Source: an uncultured bacterium
Lineage (GTDB): Bacteria > Planctomycetota > Phycisphaerae > Phycisphaerales > SM1A02
Length of the DNA stretch: 39,777 bases
Reading direction: 5' to 3'
NCBI GenBank assembly: GCA_903898755.1
Contig: CAIUGT010000014.1
Span: forward strand, 1-39,777
Shown: positions 27,153 to 39,777 of the stretch, in pieces
Numbering within the stretch: the first letter of the stretch is position 1
Layout: every line of letters begins with the position of its first letter
The notes under the pieces: model-generated
Told to the model about the DNA's origin: nothing
Seen by the model: the letters and a program-made list of their open reading frames with translations, nothing else
Databases searched by the model: none
Program-made: the position numbers and the translations under genes

Positions 27153-27158
27153 ACATTT

Positions 27159-27162
27159 GGAG
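27159..27162 (+). promoter_or_regulatory. Ribosome binding site (GGAG) deciding the sucA start
   Basis: GGAG precedes the GTG at 27172 by 9 bases. An in-frame TTG at 27157 overlaps this site and would be a poor start, so the GTG is preferred. Confidence 0.65.
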
Positions 27163-27171
27163 CATTCTTCA

Positions 27172-30069
27172 GTGAGCAACACTCCCTCTTCCAATCCTTC
27201 CCCTTCGCCCCAATCCGCCGCCGCATCGGTGAATGGTCTTGACCCCGCCTTGCTTGAGACGCTCTATGCCGATTGGCAGCGCGACCCCGCGAGTGTGAAT
27301 CAAGAGTGGCGCAGTTTTTTCCAAGGCTTTGAACTTGGCTTTGAGCGTTCGCCAAATCCCGCCGCCGAAACCGCGCCAGCCACCAACGAAAAATCGCCCG
27401 CCATTTCTACCGTCCCCGCCGCATCTGGAATGATGCACGGCTCACAAAGCAAAGTCGCAGGCCTCATCGACGCCTATCGCACACTTGGACATTTGGCGGC
27501 GTCACTCGATCCGCTTGGCGTGGAGCGGCCATTTCCAGAGGAGTTGCAACTTGAATCATTCGGCTTGACCGACAACGATCTAGCCGCGTCGTTTGATCCT
27601 GGAACGCTGCCACTTCCAAATCCAAGTTCACTGACCGAGATCATCAATCTTCTGGAAGAAACATATTGCCGGCATGTTGGCGTTGAGTATCAACATGTTC
27701 AAGATCGTCAACAACGGCGCTGGCTGCAGCAACGCATGGAAAGCGTGCGCAATCAGCCGCAATTTGATGTTTCTGTGCGCAAGCGATTGCTTGAAAGACT
27801 TATTGCGGCCGAAGGTTTTGAATCCTTCCTGGAGAAGCGCTTCATTGGAAAGAAACGTTTTGGTTTGGAGGGTGGCGAGACTTTAATTCCACTGCTCGAT
27901 GCCATCGTTGATCAAGGTCCCGCGCTTGGCGTGCGCGAATTTTCATTTGGCATGGCGCACCGCGGTCGCCTGAATGTGCTGGCCAATATTTTGGAAAAAC
28001 GCTTCGACCAAATTTTCACCGAGTTTGACGAAGCTTGGACGGAGGACTTTTTGTCCGGCGGCGGCGACGTGAAATATCATCAAGGCTATTCAAGCGATGT
28101 GAAGACCACCAGTGGTCAACCGCTGCACATCACGCTGGCCGCAAATCCAAGCCACTTGGAATTTGTTTCAAGCGTGGTCATGGGTCGCTGCCGCGCCAAG
28201 CAACGACTCGCCAATGACACCGAACACCGCACCAGTGTTGTGCCAATTCTTATTCACGGTGACGCCGCGCTTCCGGGTCAAGGTATTGTCGCCGAATGTT
28301 TCAACATGATGTTGCTTCCTGGCTTCACCGTGGGCGGCACCATTCATGTGGTCATTAACAATCAAGTGGGTTTCACCACGGATGCAAAAGATTTATTCAG
28401 TGGTCGTTACTGCACCGACATCGCCAAAATGGCGAACACGCCAATCTTTCACGTGAATGGCCAAGACCCCGAAGCCTGCGCATGGGCCGCGCGGCTTGCC
28501 ATTGAATGGCGCCAATCTTTTGGCACCGACATTCTGGTGGACATGTGGTGCTACCGAAAGAATGGCCACAATGAAACTGACGAGCCTTCATTCACGCAAC
28601 CACTGATGTACAAGTTGGTTCGCAAGCAAGTCACGGCAATGACTCACTACGCAAACCGTCTACAACAAGAAGGCGTGATCACTGCCGATGAGATCGAACA
28701 CCTCAAGAGCGATTTGTTCGCGCGCATGGACGAGGCCCAGACACGCACCAAAAAAACACCGGTGGTTCCAGGCAAGAAACCGTTCGATCATATTTGGGCG
28801 GGACTAACCGAGGCCTACTCCGACACGCCAATTGAAACGGGCGTGAAAGAAAGTCGCCTGAAAGAAGTTGCGACCGCGCTTGCGAACTTGCCGGCGGGTT
28901 TTGTTGCGCACAAGAATGTCACTCGCCTTCTAGAAATTCGCGGCAAACTTGGCGGCGATGTTGGCGTGGATTGGGGCCTTGCGGAAATGCTCGCCTACGG
29001 AACTCTTCTGCTTGAAGGCCATCCCATTCGACTCACGGGTCAAGATGTGGAGCGCGGAACATTCAGCCACCGTCATGCGGTTGTGATTGACCAAGACACC
29101 GGCGCGCCGTACATCGCGTTGAATGAAATCACGGCGAATCAGGCTAAATTTTGCGTTCACAATTCACCACTCACAGAGCAAGCTGTTGTTGGCTACGAGT
29201 ATGGATACTCGCTCACAGATCCACGCATGTTGATCTTGTGGGAAGCGCAGTTCGGCGACTTCTGCAACGGCGCGCAAATTATCATTGATCAATTCATCGC
29301 CAGCGCGGAAACAAAGTGGCAACGATCAAGTGGACTTGTTCTTCTGTTGCCACACGGATACGAGGGCCAAGGACCAGAGCACAGTTCGTCGCGCGTTGAG
29401 CGCTTCCTTCAATTGTGCGCCGCCAACAACATGGTGGTGTGTCAACCATCCACCACCGCGCAAATGTTCCACTTGCTGCGACGACAAATGAAAGTGAAGT
29501 TCCGCAAGCCGCTGATTGTGCTCACGCCCAAAAGCATGCTTCGATCGGCCGCGGCCGCAAGCCCCGTCATTGAATTCACCAAGGGCGCGTGGCAGCGAAC
29601 ATTGGCGGACACGGCGCAAGAGGCGTCGGCAAATGCGCAGAAATTATTGTTCTGCAGCGGAAAGATTTACCACGAACTTGTGGCGCAACGCGCCAAGAGC
29701 AAGTCCGCCAATATCGCCATTGTGCGCGTTGAACAGTTGAACCCATTTCCAGCTGATGAAATTAAAAAGCATTTGGAGCAACACTCCAAGGCCGACGTGT
29801 TCTGGGTTCAAGACGAACCGCGCAACATGGGCGCATGGCGATTTGTGCAAGGTCGCATGATCGATCTCTTCGCGGATCGACCCGTGAAATATATTGGTCG
29901 ACCTGATGGCGCGAGTCCGGCGGTTGGCAGTTTGAAAATGCACGGCCATCAACAAGAGGTCATTCTTGCCGAAGCCGTTGGCGCAATTCCACTCGCTGAC
30001 GGCGCCGCCAAAAACGACAAGATCGACAAAGAATCAACTGACACGTCGCCCGCGGGCACAAAGCACTGA
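27172..30069 (+). CDS. sucA: 2-oxoglutarate dehydrogenase E1 component
   Basis: This 965-residue thiamine-diphosphate enzyme decarboxylates 2-oxoglutarate and passes the succinyl group to the lipoyl arm of E2 in the TCA cycle. The N-terminal E2-docking segment is recognisable (LYADWQRDPASVNQEWRSFF, 31-50), as are GMAHRGRLNVL (260-270), GDVKYHQGYSSD (298-309), HGDAALPGQG (362-371) and NNQVGFTTD (396-404). An Ala/Pro-rich linker lies at about 58-85. It lacks the N-terminal acyltransferase domain of mycobacterial Kgd. sucB follows after 35 bases, so both form an operon. The lpd (E3) gene is not in the window. Confidence 0.97.
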   Translation: MSNTPSSNPSPSPQSAAASVNGLDPALLETLYADWQRDPASVNQEWRSFFQGFELGFERSPNPAAETAPATNEKSPAISTVPAASGMMHGSQSKVAGLIDAYRTLGHLAASLDPLGVERPFPEELQLESFGLTDNDLAASFDPGTLPLPNPSSLTEIINLLEETYCRHVGVEYQHVQDRQQRRWLQQRMESVRNQPQFDVSVRKRLLERLIAAEGFESFLEKRFIGKKRFGLEGGETLIPLLDAIVDQGPALGVREFSFGMAHRGRLNVLANILEKRFDQIFTEFDEAWTEDFLSGGGDVKYHQGYSSDVKTTSGQPLHITLAANPSHLEFVSSVVMGRCRAKQRLANDTEHRTSVVPILIHGDAALPGQGIVAECFNMMLLPGFTVGGTIHVVINNQVGFTTDAKDLFSGRYCTDIAKMANTPIFHVNGQDPEACAWAARLAIEWRQSFGTDILVDMWCYRKNGHNETDEPSFTQPLMYKLVRKQVTAMTHYANRLQQEGVITADEIEHLKSDLFARMDEAQTRTKKTPVVPGKKPFDHIWAGLTEAYSDTPIETGVKESRLKEVATALANLPAGFVAHKNVTRLLEIRGKLGGDVGVDWGLAEMLAYGTLLLEGHPIRLTGQDVERGTFSHRHAVVIDQDTGAPYIALNEITANQAKFCVHNSPLTEQAVVGYEYGYSLTDPRMLILWEAQFGDFCNGAQIIIDQFIASAETKWQRSSGLVLLLPHGYEGQGPEHSSSRVERFLQLCAANNMVVCQPSTTAQMFHLLRRQMKVKFRKPLIVLTPKSMLRSAAAASPVIEFTKGAWQRTLADTAQEASANAQKLLFCSGKIYHELVAQRAKSKSANIAIVRVEQLNPFPADEIKKHLEQHSKADVFWVQDEPRNMGAWRFVQGRMIDLFADRPVKYIGRPDGASPAVGSLKMHGHQQEVILAEAVGAIPLADGAAKNDKIDKESTDTSPAGTKH

Positions 30070-30104
30070 CCACTTCGTAAACACTTAAGCATGGAGCCAC
30101 TGGA

Positions 30105-31367
30105 ATGATTGACATTGTGATACCGAGTCCTGGAGAAAGCATTACCGAAGTTCGTCTTGGCGCGTGGAAGCGCGGAGATGGCGAGTGGGTTGAAAAAGAC
30201 GAAGTGTTAACCGAAATTGAAAGCGACAAAGCCACGCTGGAAATTTTGGCCACGGCTTCAGGCGTGCTCAAAGTGACCGCGCAAACTGGAGAAGATTTGA
30301 AAGTTGGCGCCGTTGTTGCGCGCATCGACGAAAAGGCAGCGCGACCCGCCGGCGCAAACGCTAAGCCTGCAAGCAACGCTGTTCCATCCGTGGCGGCGAA
30401 CACCTCCGCTCCCGCGCACAAAGAAACTTCCAGCGCCGCCGTTGTTGAACCGAAAGTCACCAGCGTTGCGCGCAAAATGGCCGTTGACAAAGGCGTAGAT
30501 CTTGGAACGGTGGAAGGATCCGGTCCTGGCGGACGCATCACTAAAACAGATGTTGAACACGCGCAAACAACTCCAGCAAAATCCCCCGCGTTAAACACGC
30601 CAGCCTTGTCACCTGTCGGCACAGCGAAAATTTCTTCCACTCCAATTGCAACCGGCGCGCGCGGAATGCGCCGTGAACGCATGACCAAGTTGCGTCAACG
30701 CATCGCTGAGCGTTTAGTCAGCGCCAAAAACACAGCGGCCATGTTGACCACTTTCAACGAAGCCGACATGTCCCAAGTCATGCGCCTGCGCGCAGAGCAC
30801 AAGGAAGCCTTTGAAAAGCGCCACGGCACAAGCCTGGGCTTCATGGGTTTCTTCGTGAAGGCCGTGGTTGGCGCGCTGGAAAAATATCCGCGCCTGAACG
30901 CCTTCATTATTGGCGACGAGGTTGAGTACCACGATTACATCGATGTCTCCGTGGCCGTTGGCACCGACAAGGGCCTTATGGTTCCCGTTCTGCGCAACGC
31001 CAATCGTCTTTCAATTGCCGAAGTAGAGCGAACCATTCGCGAGCTCGCCGTCAAGGCGCGCGACAACAAACTTACCGTCGACGACATGACTGGTGGCACA
31101 TTCACCATCACCAACGGCGGCGTGTACGGCAGTCTTATGAGCACGCCAATTCTGAATCCTCCGCAGTCTGGAATTCTTGGCATGCACGCTATTAAAAACC
31201 GCGCGGTCGAAGATCCAAAAAATCCCGGCCATGTTGCCATTCGACCAATGATGTATCTGGCTCTGAGCTATGACCACCGTATTGTGGATGGTTCCGAAGC
31301 CGTTGGTTTTTTGGTGGACATTAAGAACGCCATTGAAAATCCAGAGCGCCTGTTGTTGGATGTCTAA
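30105..31367 (+). CDS. sucB: Dihydrolipoyllysine succinyltransferase (2-oxoglutarate dehydrogenase E2)
   Basis: The 420-residue E2 core moves the succinyl group from E1 to CoA. One lipoyl domain (1-75) carries the lipoylated lysine K42 in [11 protein letters not shown]. After an Ala/Pro linker comes the E1/E3-binding domain (about 117-153, [16 protein letters not shown] and [13 protein letters not shown]). A second linker follows, and then the catalytic domain with H391 and D395 in [11 protein letters not shown]. Domain order and length are normal. GGAG lies 8 bases before the ATG. It is the last gene of the sucA operon and converges on ftsI. Confidence 0.97.
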
Positions 31368-31449: not shown

Positions 31450-33312
31450 TCAATGCCGATCGGGTTCGCCGCGCTCATGCACGGCAAGTTTGGCTTGTTT
31501 CTCGCCCTGATCCGGCTCAACGCCCATGTAGTTCAGGATTTCATCAATCATCTTGCGGCACACAGGCCCAGCAATGGAACCTCCGTAATGTCCCTTTGAT
31601 TTATCTGGATCATCAATAACAACCAAACACACAATTCTTGGATTATCAAACGGCGCGCCAGCGATAAACGAACTCACATAACGATCTTCAAAGTAGCCCT
31701 TGCCTTGTCCCTTTGGCTTTGGCAACTGCGCGGTGCCGGACTTGCCAAACATTCTATAAAACTCGCTCTGCGCTTTACGTCCTGTGCCTTCCGTCATGAC
31801 GCCTTCCATAGCATCACGCGCGGTCAACGCGATCGCCTCTGGCATCACACGCTTGCTTGGAACTGAATATTGATTGTCCGCGCCTTCGGTGCCAAGCGAC
31901 AACCGCGCTGGAACCATGCTTCCATCCCTGCAAAATGCGGAGAAGGCTTGCACCATTTGAATTGGAGTGACGCCAATTTCGTGACCCATGCACACGCTTG
32001 TTTGCGTGTAGACCGACCACTTCTTAGGCGTGGTCACCAAGCCTTCGCTCTCGCCAGGAATTCCAACTCCGCTCTTTTGTCCAAATCCAAATCGCTGGAT
32101 CATGTTCTGCATGTCGCTAAATTTCATTCGCTCCGCCGCGGCCGCCATTCCACCGTTGAGCGACTTCACAAGAACTTTTTTCCAACTCACCGGGCCCGGA
32201 TATTTCACGTCGCGAATCACGCGGCCAAATTTGGTGACATACGGACCGCTTGGCAAATTCACAATTGTTTCTGGCTTAAACACGCCAAGTTCCGTGGCCG
32301 TCGCCCAGACAAATGGCTTGAATGTGGAACCCGGCTCGTACGGATCCGTGACATTTCTGTTTCGTCCAAGCGACGCATGCAACGCCCGCGATGGATCCGT
32401 GGTCACTTCCTTCCAGCCCTTGCGCGGATGCAACACGTCCGCCATGGCAAGAATGTCGCCGGTCTGCACATCCATAATCACGGCGCGCCCACCACCCGCG
32501 TTCCATTCCTTCACCGAATCTTGCAACAGTCGCTCCGCAATTTCTTGCGCGACTAAATCTATAGACAAACGAATATCAACTCCATCTCGCGGCGGTTGAT
32601 AATCATTTCCCTCAATCCACAACGGTTGCCGTTTCACATCGCGCAGAAAAACCAACTGACCATCTTTGCCACGAACTTCCGCATTGTGGCGCAACTCCGC
32701 GCCAGCTTGACCGCTTTGCTCAAGACCAACTCGACCAATCACCATTGCGGCCAAATTGCCCGCTGGATATTCACGAATTGGGCGTGACTCAATTCCAATT
32801 CCTGGAATGTTCAACGCATGAATGGCATCCACTTGCTCCGGAGTCAACATGTCCGCAAGTTGCACATAGCGATCATCCGCCCGTTGATTTAAAATCGTGT
32901 GGATTTTTTTCGGCGATTCACCAAGCGCGCCGCCAATCGCACCAGCCGCATCCTTGAATGGATCACCCACCGCTTGGGAATCTGGCTCCGCTAATTTGCC
33001 CTTGCGAATCCGATCCCAGCCTCGATCCCAAATCATGGCCGGATCCGCGAAAAGTCTGCGCCCCATCAAGCTGGACGCGAGAACTCGACCGCGACGATCA
33101 ACTATTTGTCCACGAGATGCGAGTTCAGGCGCGGTGCTTTGATGCACTCCCGCAGCCGCTATAAGCCGCGGATCATCTGTTGTTTTTAACCATGCAACGC
33201 GCGCAGTGATGCAAAGCAATATCGTCGCTGTGGTGATAATGAGCACGCGACTCCAAGCGCGAATTCGGCTTGATTGCATCTCAGAAATCTGTGAAATGGA
33301 AAACTGCTTCAT
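31450..33312 (-). CDS. ftsI: Septal peptidoglycan transpeptidase FtsI (class B PBP)
   Basis: The 620-residue protein crosslinks peptidoglycan at the division septum. It has one N-terminal membrane helix (about 22-38), a pedestal domain starting at RGQIVDRRGRVLA, and a transpeptidase domain with all three active-site motifs: STFK (S329, K332), SLN (384-386) and KSGT (524-527). No PASTA domain follows. Its ATG overlaps the stop of the FtsL-like gene as ATGA, and the order rsmH - LysM - ftsL - ftsI is the dcw cluster order. That location favours FtsI over the elongation PBP2. No murE, murF or mraY follows; sucB converges instead. Confidence 0.93.
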   Translation of the reverse strand: MKQFSISQISEMQSSRIRAWSRVLIITTATILLCITARVAWLKTTDDPRLIAAAGVHQSTAPELASRGQIVDRRGRVLASSLMGRRLFADPAMIWDRGWDRIRKGKLAEPDSQAVGDPFKDAAGAIGGALGESPKKIHTILNQRADDRYVQLADMLTPEQVDAIHALNIPGIGIESRPIREYPAGNLAAMVIGRVGLEQSGQAGAELRHNAEVRGKDGQLVFLRDVKRQPLWIEGNDYQPPRDGVDIRLSIDLVAQEIAERLLQDSVKEWNAGGGRAVIMDVQTGDILAMADVLHPRKGWKEVTTDPSRALHASLGRNRNVTDPYEPGSTFKPFVWATATELGVFKPETIVNLPSGPYVTKFGRVIRDVKYPGPVSWKKVLVKSLNGGMAAAAERMKFSDMQNMIQRFGFGQKSGVGIPGESEGLVTTPKKWSVYTQTSVCMGHEIGVTPIQMVQAFSAFCRDGSMVPARLSLGTEGADNQYSVPSKRVMPEAIALTARDAMEGVMTEGTGRKAQSEFYRMFGKSGTAQLPKPKGQGKGYFEDRYVSSFIAGAPFDNPRIVCLVVIDDPDKSKGHYGGSIAGPVCRKMIDEILNYMGVEPDQGEKQAKLAVHERGEPDRH

Positions 33313-33641
33313 CCGCCAAATTCCACTTGTGCCGCGTCGGCATCTTTTACGCCCGGCTTCGTGGCCAAACGTGGTTGGGTTGGTGGCGCGGGCGCGTCAA
33401 GTCTGTGAGGAATGGGGCGCCACTGCATCTTCATGGAATCCAACGCCAGACGAATTGCGTCGGGCCGAACCTTGGAAGCCACTTCCGCGCGACATCTCAT
33501 TAAATCCCTTTGTTGTTCGATCAATCTCCAATGCGTTCTGGAAATCTTGGCGGCAACTTCATAGCGCTTCTGCCGCGTCGCCAAAAGCGCGGTTGCCATA
33601 ATTCCAAGACCCAACAAGATGGCGATTACTTTTCCGAACAT
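33309..33641 (-). CDS. FtsL-like small bitopic membrane protein
   Basis: The 110-residue product has one membrane helix right at the N-terminus (FGKVIAILLGLGIMATALLA), followed by a helical, charged stretch (about 25-75) and a proline-rich tail. FtsL proteins share this architecture but almost no sequence, and the position between rsmH and ftsI is where ftsL lies in dcw clusters. FtsL links FtsB/FtsQ to the FtsWI synthase in the periplasm. AAGGA stands 7 bases before the ATG. The stop overlaps the ftsI start. The call rests on size, topology and synteny; its tail is longer and more proline-rich than usual. Confidence 0.6.
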   Translation of the reverse strand: MFGKVIAILLGLGIMATALLATRQKRYEVAAKISRTHWRLIEQQRDLMRCRAEVASKVRPDAIRLALDSMKMQWRPIPHRLDAPAPPTQPRLATKPGVKDADAAQVEFGG

Positions 33642-33657
33642 GGTCCGGTCCTTGAAC

Positions 33658-34668
33658 TCAGTTGGTTTGTGGAAGTTGAATGCTCATGCCTGGAGAAAGC
33701 GCCGCTGGATTTGAAAGGGTTGAACCATTCGCCTCCGCAATTTCCTTCCACCGGCTGGTCTTGCCTAATTTATTTTTGGCAATGGAGCCAAGCGTGTCGC
33801 CTTTTTGCACAACATAGGTCGTCGCCGTGGCGGACTTGCTTGCTTGTTTCGGCGTCAACTGTGTCGATGTATTTGTGGCGGCTGGTTTTGCATTTGCAAC
33901 AACCACTTCAATCACGCCGCCCTGCGAGCCAGTTTTAGTTGGCGACATTTCAACACTTGTAATGTCAGCGGCCGCAAGAAGCGGGGTCTGCTCATTGAAT
34001 TTAGAATTGAGATTTGCCGAACCGCGGAGCGCGGAGCCCTCTTGCTCTTGTGGCGTCACACTGACGCGAGCGCCTTTTGCCGTTGACGCCAATACTGCGC
34101 CATGACGCAGCTGCTCCACCGGAGGCAAGCGAAGCGTGACACCCTTGCGCAATTTTGCTGCATTTGGCAGTGCTTTTTTGTTGTATTCAGCAAGCTCCTT
34201 CCACAGCGATCCGTCTCCGTATTCCTTGGCGCAAATGGAATACAAGGTTTCACCCTCGGCAATCGGATGCAATTGAACTCCTGGCTCGCTCTCCTGCACC
34301 TTAGTTGTCTTGCTTTTTTCCGTGGAAGCAATCACAGTTTCTGGCGCGGTGTTTGGCACGTTGGAAATTGGTCGAACACTTGTGGTGGTTCGCGGAACTT
34401 CCTGCTGTGGAGCGGCAATGAGATTTGATGTTGGACGGACATCGCTTGGTGGATTAGCCGCCATCACTTCAGTGGGTTGCACCGTGGTTGCGCCAGCCAT
34501 TGGGGCAATTGAAATCGGTCGAGTAACACGAATGCGTGTTCGATCGTTGCCAGCAAGATCCGCGCCTCCCTGTCTTTGTGCCGTGCTGAAATGATCGCTG
34601 ACAAGTATGCCAACAAACAGCAGCAATCCGAATCCCACAACCATCGCCAATTTATTTTCTCGTGTCAT
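33658..34668 (-). CDS. Membrane-anchored protein with two LysM domains
   Basis: From the ATG at 34668 this is a 336-residue protein with a short cytoplasmic start, one membrane helix (about 7-25), a long Thr/Pro/Ser-rich spacer, a first LysM domain (about 134-182, GETLYSICAKEYGDGSLW) and a second at the C-terminus (about 284-333, VVQKGDTLGSIAKNKLG). LysM binds the glycan of peptidoglycan. No hydrolase domain is present, so it is probably a wall-binding scaffold. It is inserted between rsmH and the ftsL-like gene, which is not where LysM genes usually sit. AAGGA 6 bases upstream settles the start against the ATG at 34728. Confidence 0.85.
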   Translation of the reverse strand: MTRENKLAMVVGFGLLLFVGILVSDHFSTAQRQGGADLAGNDRTRIRVTRPISIAPMAGATTVQPTEVMAANPPSDVRPTSNLIAAPQQEVPRTTTSVRPISNVPNTAPETVIASTEKSKTTKVQESEPGVQLHPIAEGETLYSICAKEYGDGSLWKELAEYNKKALPNAAKLRKGVTLRLPPVEQLRHGAVLASTAKGARVSVTPQEQEGSALRGSANLNSKFNEQTPLLAAADITSVEMSPTKTGSQGGVIEVVVANAKPAATNTSTQLTPKQASKSATATTYVVQKGDTLGSIAKNKLGKTSRWKEIAEANGSTLSNPAALSPGMSIQLPQTN

Positions 34669-34674
34669 TTCGCA

Positions 34675-34679
34675 TCCTT
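34675..34679 (-). promoter_or_regulatory. Ribosome binding site (AAGGA) deciding the LysM gene start
   Basis: On the minus strand AAGGA is followed by 6 bases and the ATG at 34668. This excludes the 20-residue extension from 34728, which carries no hydrophobic or conserved sequence. The 122-base gap to rsmH shows no clear promoter. Confidence 0.7.
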
Positions 34680-34790
34680 GCGTTGTGGCAATCTTGATTT
34701 TTGAAACTCTTGAATGCCAATTGTTCATTCACAAACTTTTATCAACACCAGTGAATCCATCCACCATTGATTTTGTATCGGACAAGCGAC

Positions 34791-35843
34791 CTATATACCA
34801 CCAATCCGAACTATTCGAAGCTTGGCGGAGCGAGCCCTTGGATTCGCTTCGCATTCGGCCTCACTTGCAACCAACGGCTTTCGAGCGATTCGGGTCACCC
34901 ATCCATGGCGTTCCCAATCGGTGAAAGCTCTTTTTATCAATCGGTCTTCTAGGCTGTGGAACGCCAAAATTGCCATGCGAGCATTTTGAGCCAGCCAACT
35001 TGGACTGGTTGGCTGCCCATCATTTGCCGCTTTAGAAACACTTGGCAAACCAGGGACACCCCCCCGAAACTGGGCAAATTGGTTGCCTTGGGCATCCCTT
35101 GGCGGTGGCTGAAATGTGGCAATTTCATGCTGAAATAGAGCTAAAAGTGTCTCAAGCGACTCCAATTCCTTGTTCACCGCAATCCGCAGGGCCATGAAGG
35201 TCCGTGTCGCGGGGTGCATGCGACTTTGCCTGGCCTTACCCCCATACGCGGAGACCACCGCCTTGGCTAAATCTGAAGTGGTTTTCAGCAACCCAAGGTC
35301 GCGAACATAGATAATTCGTCGGGCAATTCTGCGAGAAAACGGGTCCTCTCCCAGTTGAAAAATCAAATCAGCAAGCTCGACCTCTGAAATCCGCGCTAGC
35401 AACGCCTGGGCACTTTCTCCCGTGCTTTGATCAAGCCGCATATCGAGTGGCCCGGCAGCCCCAAATGAAAAACCGCGCGCCGGATCGCTCATTTGATTGC
35501 TGGCAAATCCCAAATCCGCAAGAAATGCGTCAGCGCGTAGTGAGTGCCCCCGGAGCACCTCCGCAATGCTTGCAAAGTTGGTGTGCACAGATACCACCTT
35601 TGGAGCTTGAGGCATTGCCCGCACTCTTTCGCTGGCAAACGCCAGATTTTTTTGATCTCGGTCAAGCAGAACTAAAGTCCCAGTGCTGCCAATCATTTTG
35701 GCAACGGCTTGCGCGTGCCCACCTCGGCCGGCGGTTGCGTCCACCACCGTGTTTCCAATTTCAAGCGTCAGCCCCTCGATAATTTCAGACAGCATGACCG
35801 GTTCATGATCAACGGCATCAAATAAAGGGTCGCCCTCGATCAT
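34791..35843 (-). CDS. rsmH: 16S rRNA (cytosine-1402-N4) methyltransferase with an insertion
   Basis: RsmH (MraW) methylates C1402 in the ribosomal decoding centre using SAM. Family motifs are present: HEPVMLSEI (13-21), the SAM loop DATAGRGGHA (35-44), DAFLADLGFASNQ (105-117), HPATRTFMALRIAVN (210-224) and FHSLEDRLIKR (295-305). At 350 residues it is longer than the usual 300-320: between the NKELESLETLL helix and the AILAFHSLED strand there are about 40 extra residues (around 240-288), rich in Pro, Gln, Gly and Ser. The wecA-type gene ends 2 bases before its ATG. mraZ is not present upstream. Confidence 0.94.
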   Translation of the reverse strand: MIEGDPLFDAVDHEPVMLSEIIEGLTLEIGNTVVDATAGRGGHAQAVAKMIGSTGTLVLLDRDQKNLAFASERVRAMPQAPKVVSVHTNFASIAEVLRGHSLRADAFLADLGFASNQMSDPARGFSFGAAGPLDMRLDQSTGESAQALLARISEVELADLIFQLGEDPFSRRIARRIIYVRDLGLLKTTSDLAKAVVSAYGGKARQSRMHPATRTFMALRIAVNKELESLETLLALFQHEIATFQPPPRDAQGNQFAQFRGGVPGLPSVSKAANDGQPTSPSWLAQNARMAILAFHSLEDRLIKRAFTDWERHGWVTRIARKPLVASEAECEANPRARSAKLRIVRIGGI

Positions 35844-35845
35844 GC

Positions 35846-37147
35846 TTAACTATGTTCTTCTGAAAGAACAGATTTGCTATTTGAAATTTTGGAGCGCTCC
35901 TGTTTCAACCACTCTAAACGTCGCGCCCGCTTTACGGCGAAAGCCACAACAATTAAAAACGCTCCCAGGGCGGCGGCCTCCACCACAATTCCTTTGACAT
36001 TGGTTAACAACAACATGACAGTCAAGCCAACACCAAGAAGCGTGAATCCCAAGGCAATGGCATATAAAGTTAAAACCGCCTTGCGAACGCTGCCTTCAAA
36101 ATATCGCTTCAATCTGTGGTGAATATGGTTGCTATCCGCGTCGGACATTGAAAGCCCCGCCACCTTGCGACGAATAATGGCAAGAGTGGTGTCCAAAATG
36201 GGCAATCCAAAACAAATTAAACCCGCCACGGAATATTTCGTCGTGCCAAATTCACCAAAGGTCATAATAATGACAACGCTGAGAAAGCCAATCAACAAAC
36301 TTCCGCAGTCGCCAAGAAATATAACCGCTGGGTTAAAGTTGTAGGGCAAGAATCCAAGCGTTGCGCCCAACAGGATCAAGCTCAGAATAATCCGAGTTCC
36401 CGCCAAACTTGTTTCAGGATTTTCCACAGGAAGCGCATACGCCATGGTCAAACTAATTGCCAAAAAGCCAAGCGCCATGATTGTGGTTGTTCCAGTCAAA
36501 AGTCCATCGAGACCATCTATTAAATTGGCGGCGTTGCAACCACCAATCACAAAGATGGCTGTGACGGCTGTTCCAAGCCAGTAATACAACTCTGAATTGG
36601 GAACACTGAACGCGCCTATGGAAAATAAAATTTCTTTTGGTTCGCCGCAAATTGCTGAAAGCACGCCACCAACCAACTGCGGTCCAACATCTTCAATAGC
36701 CAAGGCGGCGGCCGCGATAAGTTGACCGGCTATTTTCAAGCGCGGGTCCCATTTCCAAATATCATCAGCCAATCCGGTGAACACAATCGCCAACATGCCC
36801 ACCACTATGCTCAGCGGTACCCCTTGCAAGATTGCCGACTGTCCGCTTGTAAAGATTCCGCTTGCAGCAATCCCAGCCAAAACACCAGCAAAAACAGCAA
36901 GACCGCCAAGATACGCAATGGGATATGCGTGCTGTTTTCGCCCTTGATCTGGATGATCAATAATGTCCGCGGCGATCGCAATGCGTCGAACAATAGGAGT
37001 GACGATGAGTGTGACGACAAGCGCCGCCACAAAAACTGGCATATAGCCAGAGAGCAGCTCTATTGGATTCAACACTGTCCATGTTGAAACATCGGAGCCC
37101 GTGCGCCCAATGTTAAGAGACTGGTTGACAAGTGAGCCCTGAATCAT
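35846..37147 (-). CDS. Undecaprenyl-phosphate sugar-1-phosphate transferase (WecA/TagO type)
   Basis: This 433-residue membrane enzyme should transfer GlcNAc-1-phosphate (or a related sugar phosphate) to undecaprenyl phosphate, the first step of a polysaccharide. About eleven membrane helices are predicted. Motifs: DIIDHPDQGRKQH (61-73), the Mg-binding DD (128-129), NAANLIDGLDGL (205-216), FLGDCGS (277-283) and HIHHRL (341-346). The last motif marks the WecA/TagO branch; MraY has a different HHHFE loop. The N-terminus carries about 35 residues before the first helix. Its ATG overlaps the epimerase stop (ATGA), and rsmH starts 2 bases after its stop. Confidence 0.9.
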   Translation of the reverse strand: MIQGSLVNQSLNIGRTGSDVSTWTVLNPIELLSGYMPVFVAALVVTLIVTPIVRRIAIAADIIDHPDQGRKQHAYPIAYLGGLAVFAGVLAGIAASGIFTSGQSAILQGVPLSIVVGMLAIVFTGLADDIWKWDPRLKIAGQLIAAAALAIEDVGPQLVGGVLSAICGEPKEILFSIGAFSVPNSELYYWLGTAVTAIFVIGGCNAANLIDGLDGLLTGTTTIMALGFLAISLTMAYALPVENPETSLAGTRIILSLILLGATLGFLPYNFNPAVIFLGDCGSLLIGFLSVVIIMTFGEFGTTKYSVAGLICFGLPILDTTLAIIRRKVAGLSMSDADSNHIHHRLKRYFEGSVRKAVLTLYAIALGFTLLGVGLTVMLLLTNVKGIVVEAAALGAFLIVVAFAVKRARRLEWLKQERSKISNSKSVLSEEHS

Positions 37148-38145
37148 GCTGCGTGTTCCTTTTGATGAGCGCCACCCAAAGATCGAGCGATGTCGGCAAT
37201 TGTTGTGTCAAGAGAAATCAATGGCGCAAATCCAATCGCTCCACGAATGCGTTCAAGGCTTGGCTGCCGAACTTGAAGATCTTCAAAGCCCTTGCCAAAT
37301 ACTTTCTCGTGTGACACGTTTTGAATAGCAGAGACAGATCCCGTGACGCGAATCACGCTCTCGGCCAACTCTCGCATTGAAATCATCTCATCGGAACCCA
37401 TGTTGAAGACCTGCCCCAAACACGCCGTCGAGCGCAGCAACTGAATCAACGCGGGCGCGACATCGCGCACATCGCAAAAACAGCGCTTTTGAGAGCCGTC
37501 ACCATGCACTTCCAAGGGCTTGCCCGCCAATGCGGCCTGAATAAATCGCGGCAACACCATTCCCCAATCCCCTTTTTGACGGGGCCCAACTGTATTAAAA
37601 AATCGGACAATGACCGCCTGAAGGTTTGATTCCGAAACTGCCGCAAGAGTGAGAAACTCATCAAGTGCTTTGGAATAACCATAACTCCAACGCGAAGATG
37701 TGGTTGGTCCAAACACCACGTCGTCACATTCAGAAAATGGTATTCGAATGCCTTTACCGTAAACCTCGCTGCTTGAAGCGATCAACAACTTCGCGTGATC
37801 TCGAATGGCCCAACGAATGGCCGCGGTTGTTTCAAGAATATTTGTCTCTATGGATTGCCTTGCGTGATCAACAATAAGGCGAACGCCAACCGCGGCAGCA
37901 AGGTGGTAAATCTCATCGAAGCGTTCCATATTCAACGTGGCGAATGCGTGCGTGACGGTATTTGGAATAAACTGAAGTCGATCTCCCGCCGCTTTTTTCG
38001 CGCCAGAAAGATTCTGTATATCTCCAGTTGAAAGATCATCCACAACCACCACGCGCGCGCCCTGCAAGAGCAATTGCTCCACCAAGTGGCTTCCAATAAA
38101 CCCCGAGCCACCCGTAACCAGAATGTGCTTGGTGGAGGTTGTCAT
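37144..38145 (-). CDS. NAD-dependent nucleotide-sugar epimerase/dehydratase (extended SDR)
   Basis: The 333-residue protein is an extended short-chain dehydrogenase acting on a nucleotide sugar. It has the NAD motif GGSGFIG (12-18), DDLSTG, HLAAAVGV, SSSEVYG (124-130), and the active pair Y155/K159 in YGYSK, then RFFNTVGPRQ. It is closest in pattern to UDP-glucose 4-epimerases and UDP-glucuronate decarboxylases, but the exact reaction is not determined by these motifs. It lies between the Wzz/BY-kinase-like gene (8 bases) and the WecA-type gene (ATGA overlap), so it should make a sugar donor for the same surface polysaccharide. Confidence 0.85.
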   Translation of the reverse strand: MTTSTKHILVTGGSGFIGSHLVEQLLLQGARVVVVDDLSTGDIQNLSGAKKAAGDRLQFIPNTVTHAFATLNMERFDEIYHLAAAVGVRLIVDHARQSIETNILETTAAIRWAIRDHAKLLIASSSEVYGKGIRIPFSECDDVVFGPTTSSRWSYGYSKALDEFLTLAAVSESNLQAVIVRFFNTVGPRQKGDWGMVLPRFIQAALAGKPLEVHGDGSQKRCFCDVRDVAPALIQLLRSTACLGQVFNMGSDEMISMRELAESVIRVTGSVSAIQNVSHEKVFGKGFEDLQVRQPSLERIRGAIGFAPLISLDTTIADIARSLGGAHQKEHAA

Positions 38146-38153
38146 GTATCAAT

Positions 38154-39777
38154 CTATGTTGTGGATGGCTTTGGGCCATCTTTGGCACGGATAGGATTCG
38201 CCACTTGACCGGCTGCCGGCAACTGAAATGCCGCGGTTTGTTCCGCGTATTCCGCGATTGCCTCGGCGTTCTTTTTAAAGTAGCCGCCTGCGGTGTTCTT
38301 AGGTCTATTCAATATTGTTCCTAAGAAATTACTTTTGCTGTCCATGAGTTGATACGCCAACTTGATGACAAGTCCCCTCTGGTCTTGCCAAGCGCGCACA
38401 ACTAAAATTGATGCGTCGGCTTTGTTTGCCAACGCAAGCCCTTCTCCAGCGACAACGCTTGGTGGAGCATCTAGATACACACGGTCATAATTTTGATGAC
38501 ACCAATCGAGAAACGCATCCATTTTTTCGGTATTAAGCAGTTGAAACGTTCTATTGGACGGCGCACCAGCACCTATGAAATGCAAGCCGTTGCCTTGGTC
38601 AATTAAAATACTAGACGGATTTGCGCCATTTAAAATATCACCAAGACCTGGCAGGTTTGGATCAAGTCCAAGCGCCTTACCCAACCCGGGCCGGCGAAGA
38701 TTGGCGCCAACAATTAAAGTCCTCCGCCCAACCGATGCATCGCATGCGGCAAGATTGAGCACCATGGTCGTCGTACCCGAATTCGGCATCGGACTCATGA
38801 CCAAGACAATTTTTGCGTTCGTTGGAGCCAAGCCCTTTGTAATCAAGGCATCACTTTGTCTAAAGCTTTCCGCCGTCATGGAGTGCGGACTTTCAAACAC
38901 TATCAATTCCGCGCGCTTGGGCTTGGTTGGATCATCACTAATATCTGGAATAACGCCCAATATTTTTCCGGGCAAGCCCATGAGGTCGCTGGGATACTTG
39001 ATTCGCTGGTCAAGGATTTCACGGACAAACAGAATTAAAATATAAATACCGCACAGTAGAAGGGCGGTTCCAGGAACCATGATCTTCAATTGGGGAAAGG
39101 TGATTTCGCGGGGCTTGATCGCTTTTTGAACTACCTCAACTCGATGGGATTCGTCACGCAATCGCGCCAAATTCACATCGTTGATTGTTTGAGACACAAG
39201 CTTTCTTTGATCCTCAGCCTGGCTTAACTGCTCACGCAATGTGCCAAGCTCTGCCATATTCATTGTAAAATCTTCGCTTGCAACGGAGTTCTTTGCAAAA
39301 TCTTCCTGTTGCCTTTTCAAAAGACTTGTGAGTGATTGAACCCGATTGGCCGCGGCCCTTAAATCGGAAAGCTGATTTCGAAGCAGGATCTTCTTGCGCG
39401 TTTCAGTGCGCTGTTTATCAACCGCAGCCTGGGCCGCCTTTAATTGAAGTACTTCGGCGTGCTTTTCTCCAAATTGTTTTGTCGAAGCTTCGTAACGACG
39501 AGACGCGTCCTCGAAATCACGGTTTAAATTTTGCATCACAGGGTCGCTGTCCGCGTCACGTAAATCCTCGTCAGAAAACCCGGCTGCGCCACTCTGCTTT
39601 TCTTCCGCCTGGGCCTTGCGCGACTCCGCCACAGAGAGCTCACTGGTTGTGTTGGCAATTCCCTCCCGCAATTTCTCCAATGCCCGAGAATTTTCACTGG
39701 ATGACTCATTCAAACTTGTCATGTTGCGTTCTTTGACAAACTTTTGAATTTCCTGCTTCTTAGCCGCAATTTGATCA
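38154..39777 (-). CDS. Wzz/BY-kinase-like polysaccharide co-polymerase with degenerate nucleotide site (5' end outside window)
   Basis: The frame is open to the right edge, so the N-terminus (first membrane helix and start of the Wzz domain) is missing; 540 residues are visible. They comprise a long coiled coil, the proline-containing segment before the second membrane helix (VPGTALLLCGIYILILFV), then a cytoplasmic bacterial-tyrosine-kinase-like domain. Its Walker A reads SPMPNSGTTT, where GKS/T is expected, so the lysine is threonine. Walker A' reads LIVGANLRRP, lacking both aspartates. Walker B VYLDAPP is kept. The C-terminus has no tyrosine cluster. Probably a chain-length regulator whose kinase part is inactive. 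It heads the epimerase-wecA-rsmH-ftsI run. Confidence 0.9.
   Translation of the reverse strand, partial: DQIAAKKQEIQKFVKERNMTSLNESSSENSRALEKLREGIANTTSELSVAESRKAQAEEKQSGAAGFSDEDLRDADSDPVMQNLNRDFEDASRRYEASTKQFGEKHAEVLQLKAAQAAVDKQRTETRKKILLRNQLSDLRAAANRVQSLTSLLKRQQEDFAKNSVASEDFTMNMAELGTLREQLSQAEDQRKLVSQTINDVNLARLRDESHRVEVVQKAIKPREITFPQLKIMVPGTALLLCGIYILILFVREILDQRIKYPSDLMGLPGKILGVIPDISDDPTKPKRAELIVFESPHSMTAESFRQSDALITKGLAPTNAKIVLVMSPMPNSGTTTMVLNLAACDASVGRRTLIVGANLRRPGLGKALGLDPNLPGLGDILNGANPSSILIDQGNGLHFIGAGAPSNRTFQLLNTEKMDAFLDWCHQNYDRVYLDAPPSVVAGEGLALANKADASILVVRAWQDQRGLVIKLAYQLMDSKSNFLGTILNRPKNTAGGYFKKNAEAIAEYAEQTAAFQLPAAGQVANPIRAKDGPKPSTT

Follow-up and report, generated by a model that had tools for sequence, protein, structure and literature searches.

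The last minus-strand gene of the planctomycete DNA examined here (39,777 nucleotides, hereafter the window) is best read, with a probability of about 0.8, as encoding an inner-membrane PCP-2a co-polymerase of a conserved exosortase-linked exopolysaccharide locus. Its kinase domain would be a catalytically dead pseudokinase with a role in oligomerization, serving an exporter that works independently of phosphorylation. What was computed for this reading is which residues were lost and in what phylogenetic sequence, the purifying selection, the fold, the gene context and a genome search in which no second BY-kinase was found among the matches opened.

Gene and domain architecture

The co-polymerase gene occupies positions 38154-39776 (minus strand), which hold 540 aa of its product. 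A sequence-only reading of the same DNA had claimed an intact frame, and the ORF is indeed open throughout the window; its 5' end runs off the window edge. The remaining ~220 N-terminal residues lie on a second contig, C131 (L003:11790-12566), the end of which overlaps the first 46 aa of the window ORF with 100% identity (L003:12429-12566; window 39776). From this exact overlap, the genome carries a complete gene that was split by assembly. The window contig and C131 are joinable via the overlap coding the 46 identical residues.

By sequence, the best solved relatives of the protein are VpsO, CapAB, BceF and Wzc. A model of the kinase-like domain from 70 sequences (pLDDT 86.4, pTM 0.80) has Wzc-K540M and CapAB as its best PDB matches by Foldseek, with TM-scores of 0.72-0.77. 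In the model of a full-length orthologue, helices 38-62 and 443-468 fall where TM segments are expected, the periplasmic part is long and helical, and the BYK fold lies at the C-terminus. Helix 443-468 corresponds to the second transmembrane segment region read from the window sequence (FPQLKIMVPGTALLLCGIYILILFVREILDQ; aa 227-257; 39006-39098, minus strand). Wzc chains are again the top PDB matches of the full-length model, at a whole-chain TM-score of only 0.32-0.38, which is low because the helical part is extended. As modeled, the protein has the PCP-2a (Wzc-like) architecture of two TM helices around a periplasmic domain and a fused BY-kinase fold.

Motifs of the kinase-like domain

The motifs PNSGTTT, VGAN and YLDAPP occur in the minus-strand ORF just as the sequence-only reading had given them, but the span it assigned, 38700-38795, covers Walker A, cuts through Walker A' and leaves Walker B outside. 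The degenerate Walker A (PNSGTTT, 38766-38786, minus strand) has Thr at the Lys position (codon 38772-38774), and the Lys of GK[ST] expected of an active BY-kinase is found in 0/93 sampled orthologues of the order. The degenerate Walker A' (VGANLRRP, 38688-38711, minus strand) keeps its Arg, with Gly at the first Asp position (D1) and Asn at the second (D2); the DxD of active BY-kinases is absent, both Asp being replaced throughout the genus. Walker B (YLDAPP, 38460-38477, minus strand) is intact, and its Asp, also expected of an active BY-kinase, is invariant in all orthologues and paralogues compared. The sequence AESFRQ (38856-38873, minus strand) is the retained E-x-x-R half of the EX2RX2R oligomerization motif; ExxR is present in 93/93 orthologues of the order, and the second Arg is lost in the genus.

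At the C-terminus, a tail reading GGYFKKN...Y (38247-38288, minus strand), predicted at low confidence to form a helix, replaces the Tyr-rich tail. The absence of a tyrosine cluster had been noticed before and stands, since this tail holds two tyrosines, neither within two residues of another; what should be added is that both, Y499 and Y510, are conserved in the order (79/80 and 80/80 members outside the genus, respectively). The tail motif itself is conserved class-wide despite loss of the cluster. The NCBIfam model TIGR01007 scores 76.6 bits against a curated cut-off of 108.05, and BY-kinase models fall below cut-off. With a predicted BYK fold that lacks catalytic residues on the same chain as the PCP part, the protein is, judging from sequence and model, a fused BY pseudokinase PCP-2.

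Distribution and order of residue loss

A match was present in 98 of the 101 genomes searched (own genome included). Matches that bear a name are Planctomycetota MAGs, many of them carrying the label Phycisphaerales or Phycisphaerae. The suggestion that homologues be compared for the three substitutions is answered by an independent orthologue of 94% identity and by 13/13 sampled genus orthologues, all of which carry T, G and N. Intact GKT was found only in orthologues of other orders, and homologues from the same species had no intact GKS/T. A canonical Wzc-like fragment (L320) in the assembly G012, which is 9% contaminated, probably comes from a contaminating organism.

Each of the three positions has its own distribution. 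The Walker A Lys is missing from all 13 genus orthologues and all 80 sampled from the rest of the order; in other orders of the class (n=43) the position is K in 27, R in 13 and another residue in 3. D1 is G in 13/13 of the genus, but D in 77/80 of the rest of the order (plus E in 2) and D in 41/43 of the other orders. D2 is N in 13/13, 78/80 and 43/43, or 134/136 sampled across the class, and D in the phylum homologues read from outside the class. In paralogues, which come from the genomes of relatives and not from the window's own genome, both Lys and D2 are kept in 53/53. The order forms one clade (SH-aLRT 100) in a 115-row tree built with the trait columns masked, on which seven changes occur among K, R and other. 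Read from these sequences, the loss is stepwise: D2 became N first, class-wide; the Lys was lost next, at the order's base or below it, and D1 last, in the genus only. The three losses, listed together in the sequence-only reading, are nested steps of different age and not one event; it was correct that both Asp are replaced, but D2 to Asn is the older, class-wide change and only the D1 loss is genus-specific.

The 13/43 sampled sequences with Arg in place of the Walker A Lys, reading GDGRT, belong to several of the other orders of the class (L229, L239, L253-L257, L259 and others). Further Lys losses, to Ala or Thr, are found outside the order in families f9 and f13 (L237, L240, L249), and these may be either separate from the order-base loss or shared with it.

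Purifying selection on the domain

The pseudokinase domain is retained under purifying selection. Six pairs gave dN/dS values of 0.037-0.166 for the kinase-like part, synonymous sites being near saturation in some of them, and comparable values (0.046-0.086) for the PCP part. Within the order, little or no variation is seen at G334, T/S336, D357, R361, D436, Y499 and Y510, while the Lys column varies more freely than the domain does on average (2.07 vs 1.90 bits). Together with the absence of Lys throughout the sampled order, strict synteny, the intact fold and the lack of an active BY-kinase among the other matches opened in the genome, these values bear out the earlier view that selection maintains a pseudokinase in a polysaccharide chain-length or export protein. 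That the substitutions reflect recent decay or a sequencing error has next to no probability. The gene does come from a single draft assembly and is split between contigs, but the data contradict such an origin: independent genomes share the same residues, frames are open over about 750 aa and dN/dS is low. A strain mutation and chance were rejected on the same grounds.

Exopolysaccharide locus and genome search

The gene order is pyrB, Wza-like, exosortase, EpsI-like, large TPR, co-polymerase, epimerase, WecA-like, rsmH, LysM and PBP. Next to the co-polymerase is an NAD-dependent sugar epimerase/dehydratase (37144-38145, minus strand), followed by a WecA/MraY-like glycosyl-1-phosphate transferase (Glycos_transf_4; 35846-37147, minus strand) that is the probable initiating enzyme. 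The exosortase scores 113 bits with TIGR02602, above the 105.55 cut-off. The order Wza-exosortase-TPR-co-polymerase was found in 57/57 complete loci, with the WecA-like gene in 56/57. Twenty loci of the class have the same cluster core, with the Wza-like, exosortase and TPR genes each present in 19, which indicates that the residues changed within a single conserved type of locus.

The sequence-only reading had proposed looking for a separate active enzyme, and no second BY-kinase was found among the TIGR01007 matches opened in the window's own genome. Of these, L005 and L007 are ParA and L006 is Mrp-like; L008 and L009 (E 0.002 and 0.008) lie outside the matches opened. No phosphatase gene was recognized among the cluster genes examined. 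The sole LMWPc-type phosphatase found in the genome (L287:1444-1962) lies beside an RpiB-like gene and was rejected as a Wzb partner because it is outside the exopolysaccharide locus.

Proposed function and alternative explanations

From the evidence above, we infer that the domain has lost its activity and acts in oligomerization as a scaffold. The co-polymerase would be laid out as a TM segment, a periplasmic helical domain, a second TM segment and a cytoplasmic BY-kinase fold. Still packed within the oligomer's cytoplasmic ring, the dead domain would hold the permanently unphosphorylated co-polymerase in an assembled state that couples polymerization to the outer-membrane exporter, a Wza-like protein. 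Contacts independent of phosphorylation, and not Tyr autophosphorylation, would drive assembly and disassembly, perhaps with nucleotide serving the remaining members of the order as a structural ligand. The bacteria of the order, this aquatic planctomycete among them, appear to export slime polymer without the usual phosphorylation drive. The earlier proposal of a structural role in chain-length control is better stated as a cytoplasmic oligomerization domain of a PCP-2a co-polymerase in an exosortase-linked locus.

Some findings count against a dead kinase. Hardly any variation occurs in the order at the Walker B Asp, the Walker A Gly and Ser/Thr and the two tail tyrosines, which leaves room for a nucleotide-dependent function. 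With wild-type Wzc, the E. coli capsule needs phosphorylation cycling (PMC8285477), so that a permanently dead kinase needs some other driver of disassembly. The missing second Arg of EX2RX2R in the genus likewise counts against the oligomerization role. It is possible, though short of even odds, that phosphotransfer has been lost while the domain goes on binding Mg-nucleotide, which would switch the oligomer in a structural or regulatory way. Wzc-K540M, in which phosphorylation is abolished, forms stable octamers and still binds ADP-Mg (PMC8285477); with Walker A Thr and Walker B Asp remaining here, the loss of ATP binding that had been deduced from the motifs does not follow. The Mg-ligand positions are fixed in the order (Ser/Thr 80/80, D1 as counted above, Walker B Asp 80/80), and the freer Lys column fits as well. 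However, the conserved residues may serve folding, and in the genus the loss of D1 would weaken nucleotide binding and makes it less likely. On the widest such reading, the order would have rebuilt Wzc-type polymer export to run permanently without tyrosine phosphorylation: the BY-kinase would have been dismantled in traceable steps, first D2 to N, next K to R or its loss and finally D1, and outside the genus its nucleotide pocket would have been kept as a phosphotransfer-free ligand switch. We hold this to be somewhat less probable than its negation.

The near-invariance of Y499 and Y510 from genus to class also invites explanations in which these tyrosines are phosphorylated. An unrelated kinase might act on them in trans, given that no active BY-kinase domain is seen in cis and none was found among the matches opened elsewhere in the genome; with only two tyrosines, in a segment modeled as a helix, this is very unlikely. 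It is slightly more improbable that the domain itself is a non-canonical active kinase in which another basic residue stands in for Lys. The order does conserve a basic residue at the QRGL/QKGL position, but D2 is replaced besides the Lys, D1 is lost in the genus, the Tyr cluster is missing, and many members of the order differ at the Lys site with no shared replacement.

Comparison with known systems

Like Wzc, the PCP-2a tyrosine autokinase of E. coli K30, the planctomycete co-polymerase has the domain architecture, the BY-kinase fold and an adjoining gene for a Wza-type exporter, and it shares its key Lys loss with the engineered Wzc-K540M. Unlike Wzc, it lacks the Walker A Lys, the A' Asp pair and the Tyr-rich tail, and its gene stands in an exosortase/TPR context. 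The locus resembles the XrtA/PEP-CTERM exopolysaccharide locus (EpsH exosortase, PrsT, TIGR03018 autokinase) in that exosortase, EpsI-like, TPR (PrsT-like) and Wza-like genes follow one another, but a fused pseudokinase takes the autokinase role and most XrtA-specific models score below cut-off.

According to the EcpK paper (PMC12004946), EcpK/EpsV of Myxococcus xanthus and HfsB/HfsA of Caulobacter likewise have a BY-kinase fold with neither catalytic motifs nor a Tyr tail, and EcpK is a BY pseudokinase able to support a PCP-2 without phosphorylation. A C-terminal helix and an exopolysaccharide pathway are common to these systems and the planctomycete protein. EcpK and HfsB are stand-alone, with a PCP-2 partner that has no BYK, whereas the planctomycete domain is fused in a single polypeptide; EcpK lacks all three Walker motifs, whereas Walker B and parts of Walker A are kept here. 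The same paper names PCP-2 pseudokinases fused in one polypeptide in S. meliloti (SMc01795), Brucella, Mesorhizobium and Vibrio vulnificus. These are scattered sequence examples, likened here by description only, and neither order-wide fixation nor a path of loss was found described for them.

Stand-alone and fused BY pseudokinases are already known. No report of order-wide fixation as the locus copy, within an exosortase locus and with surviving intermediates, was found in the open-licence papers searched; what seems new, from the sequences, is order-wide fixation as the genome's sole BY-kinase domain, together with a path of loss that can be read. Wzc models hold phosphorylation cycling to be needed for capsule and exopolysaccharide export, and the EcpK paper treats the working mode of pseudokinases as an open question (PMC12004946). 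A single orthologue series in one locus type runs from K+ through K-to-R and K-less with Mg-ligand positions to K-less without D1, so the structural and catalytic roles of BY-kinases can be tested with natural proteins; if order-wide dismantling is true, the class is a natural series that separates the two. For this order's locus copy, annotation as a 'tyrosine autokinase' is probably an error.

Further features of the locus and window

The exopolysaccharide locus (window 31450-38145 plus L003:2042-11776) is directly followed by the cell-wall cluster of rsmH, LysM and PBP, and pyrB precedes it in the genus and many relatives. A 24/48-bp tandem repeat (L003:4000-4166) codes a Pro/Thr-rich stretch inside the Wza-like protein. 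Positions 27157-31367 of the window hold putative 2-oxoglutarate dehydrogenase E1-like (TTG start) and E2-like genes.
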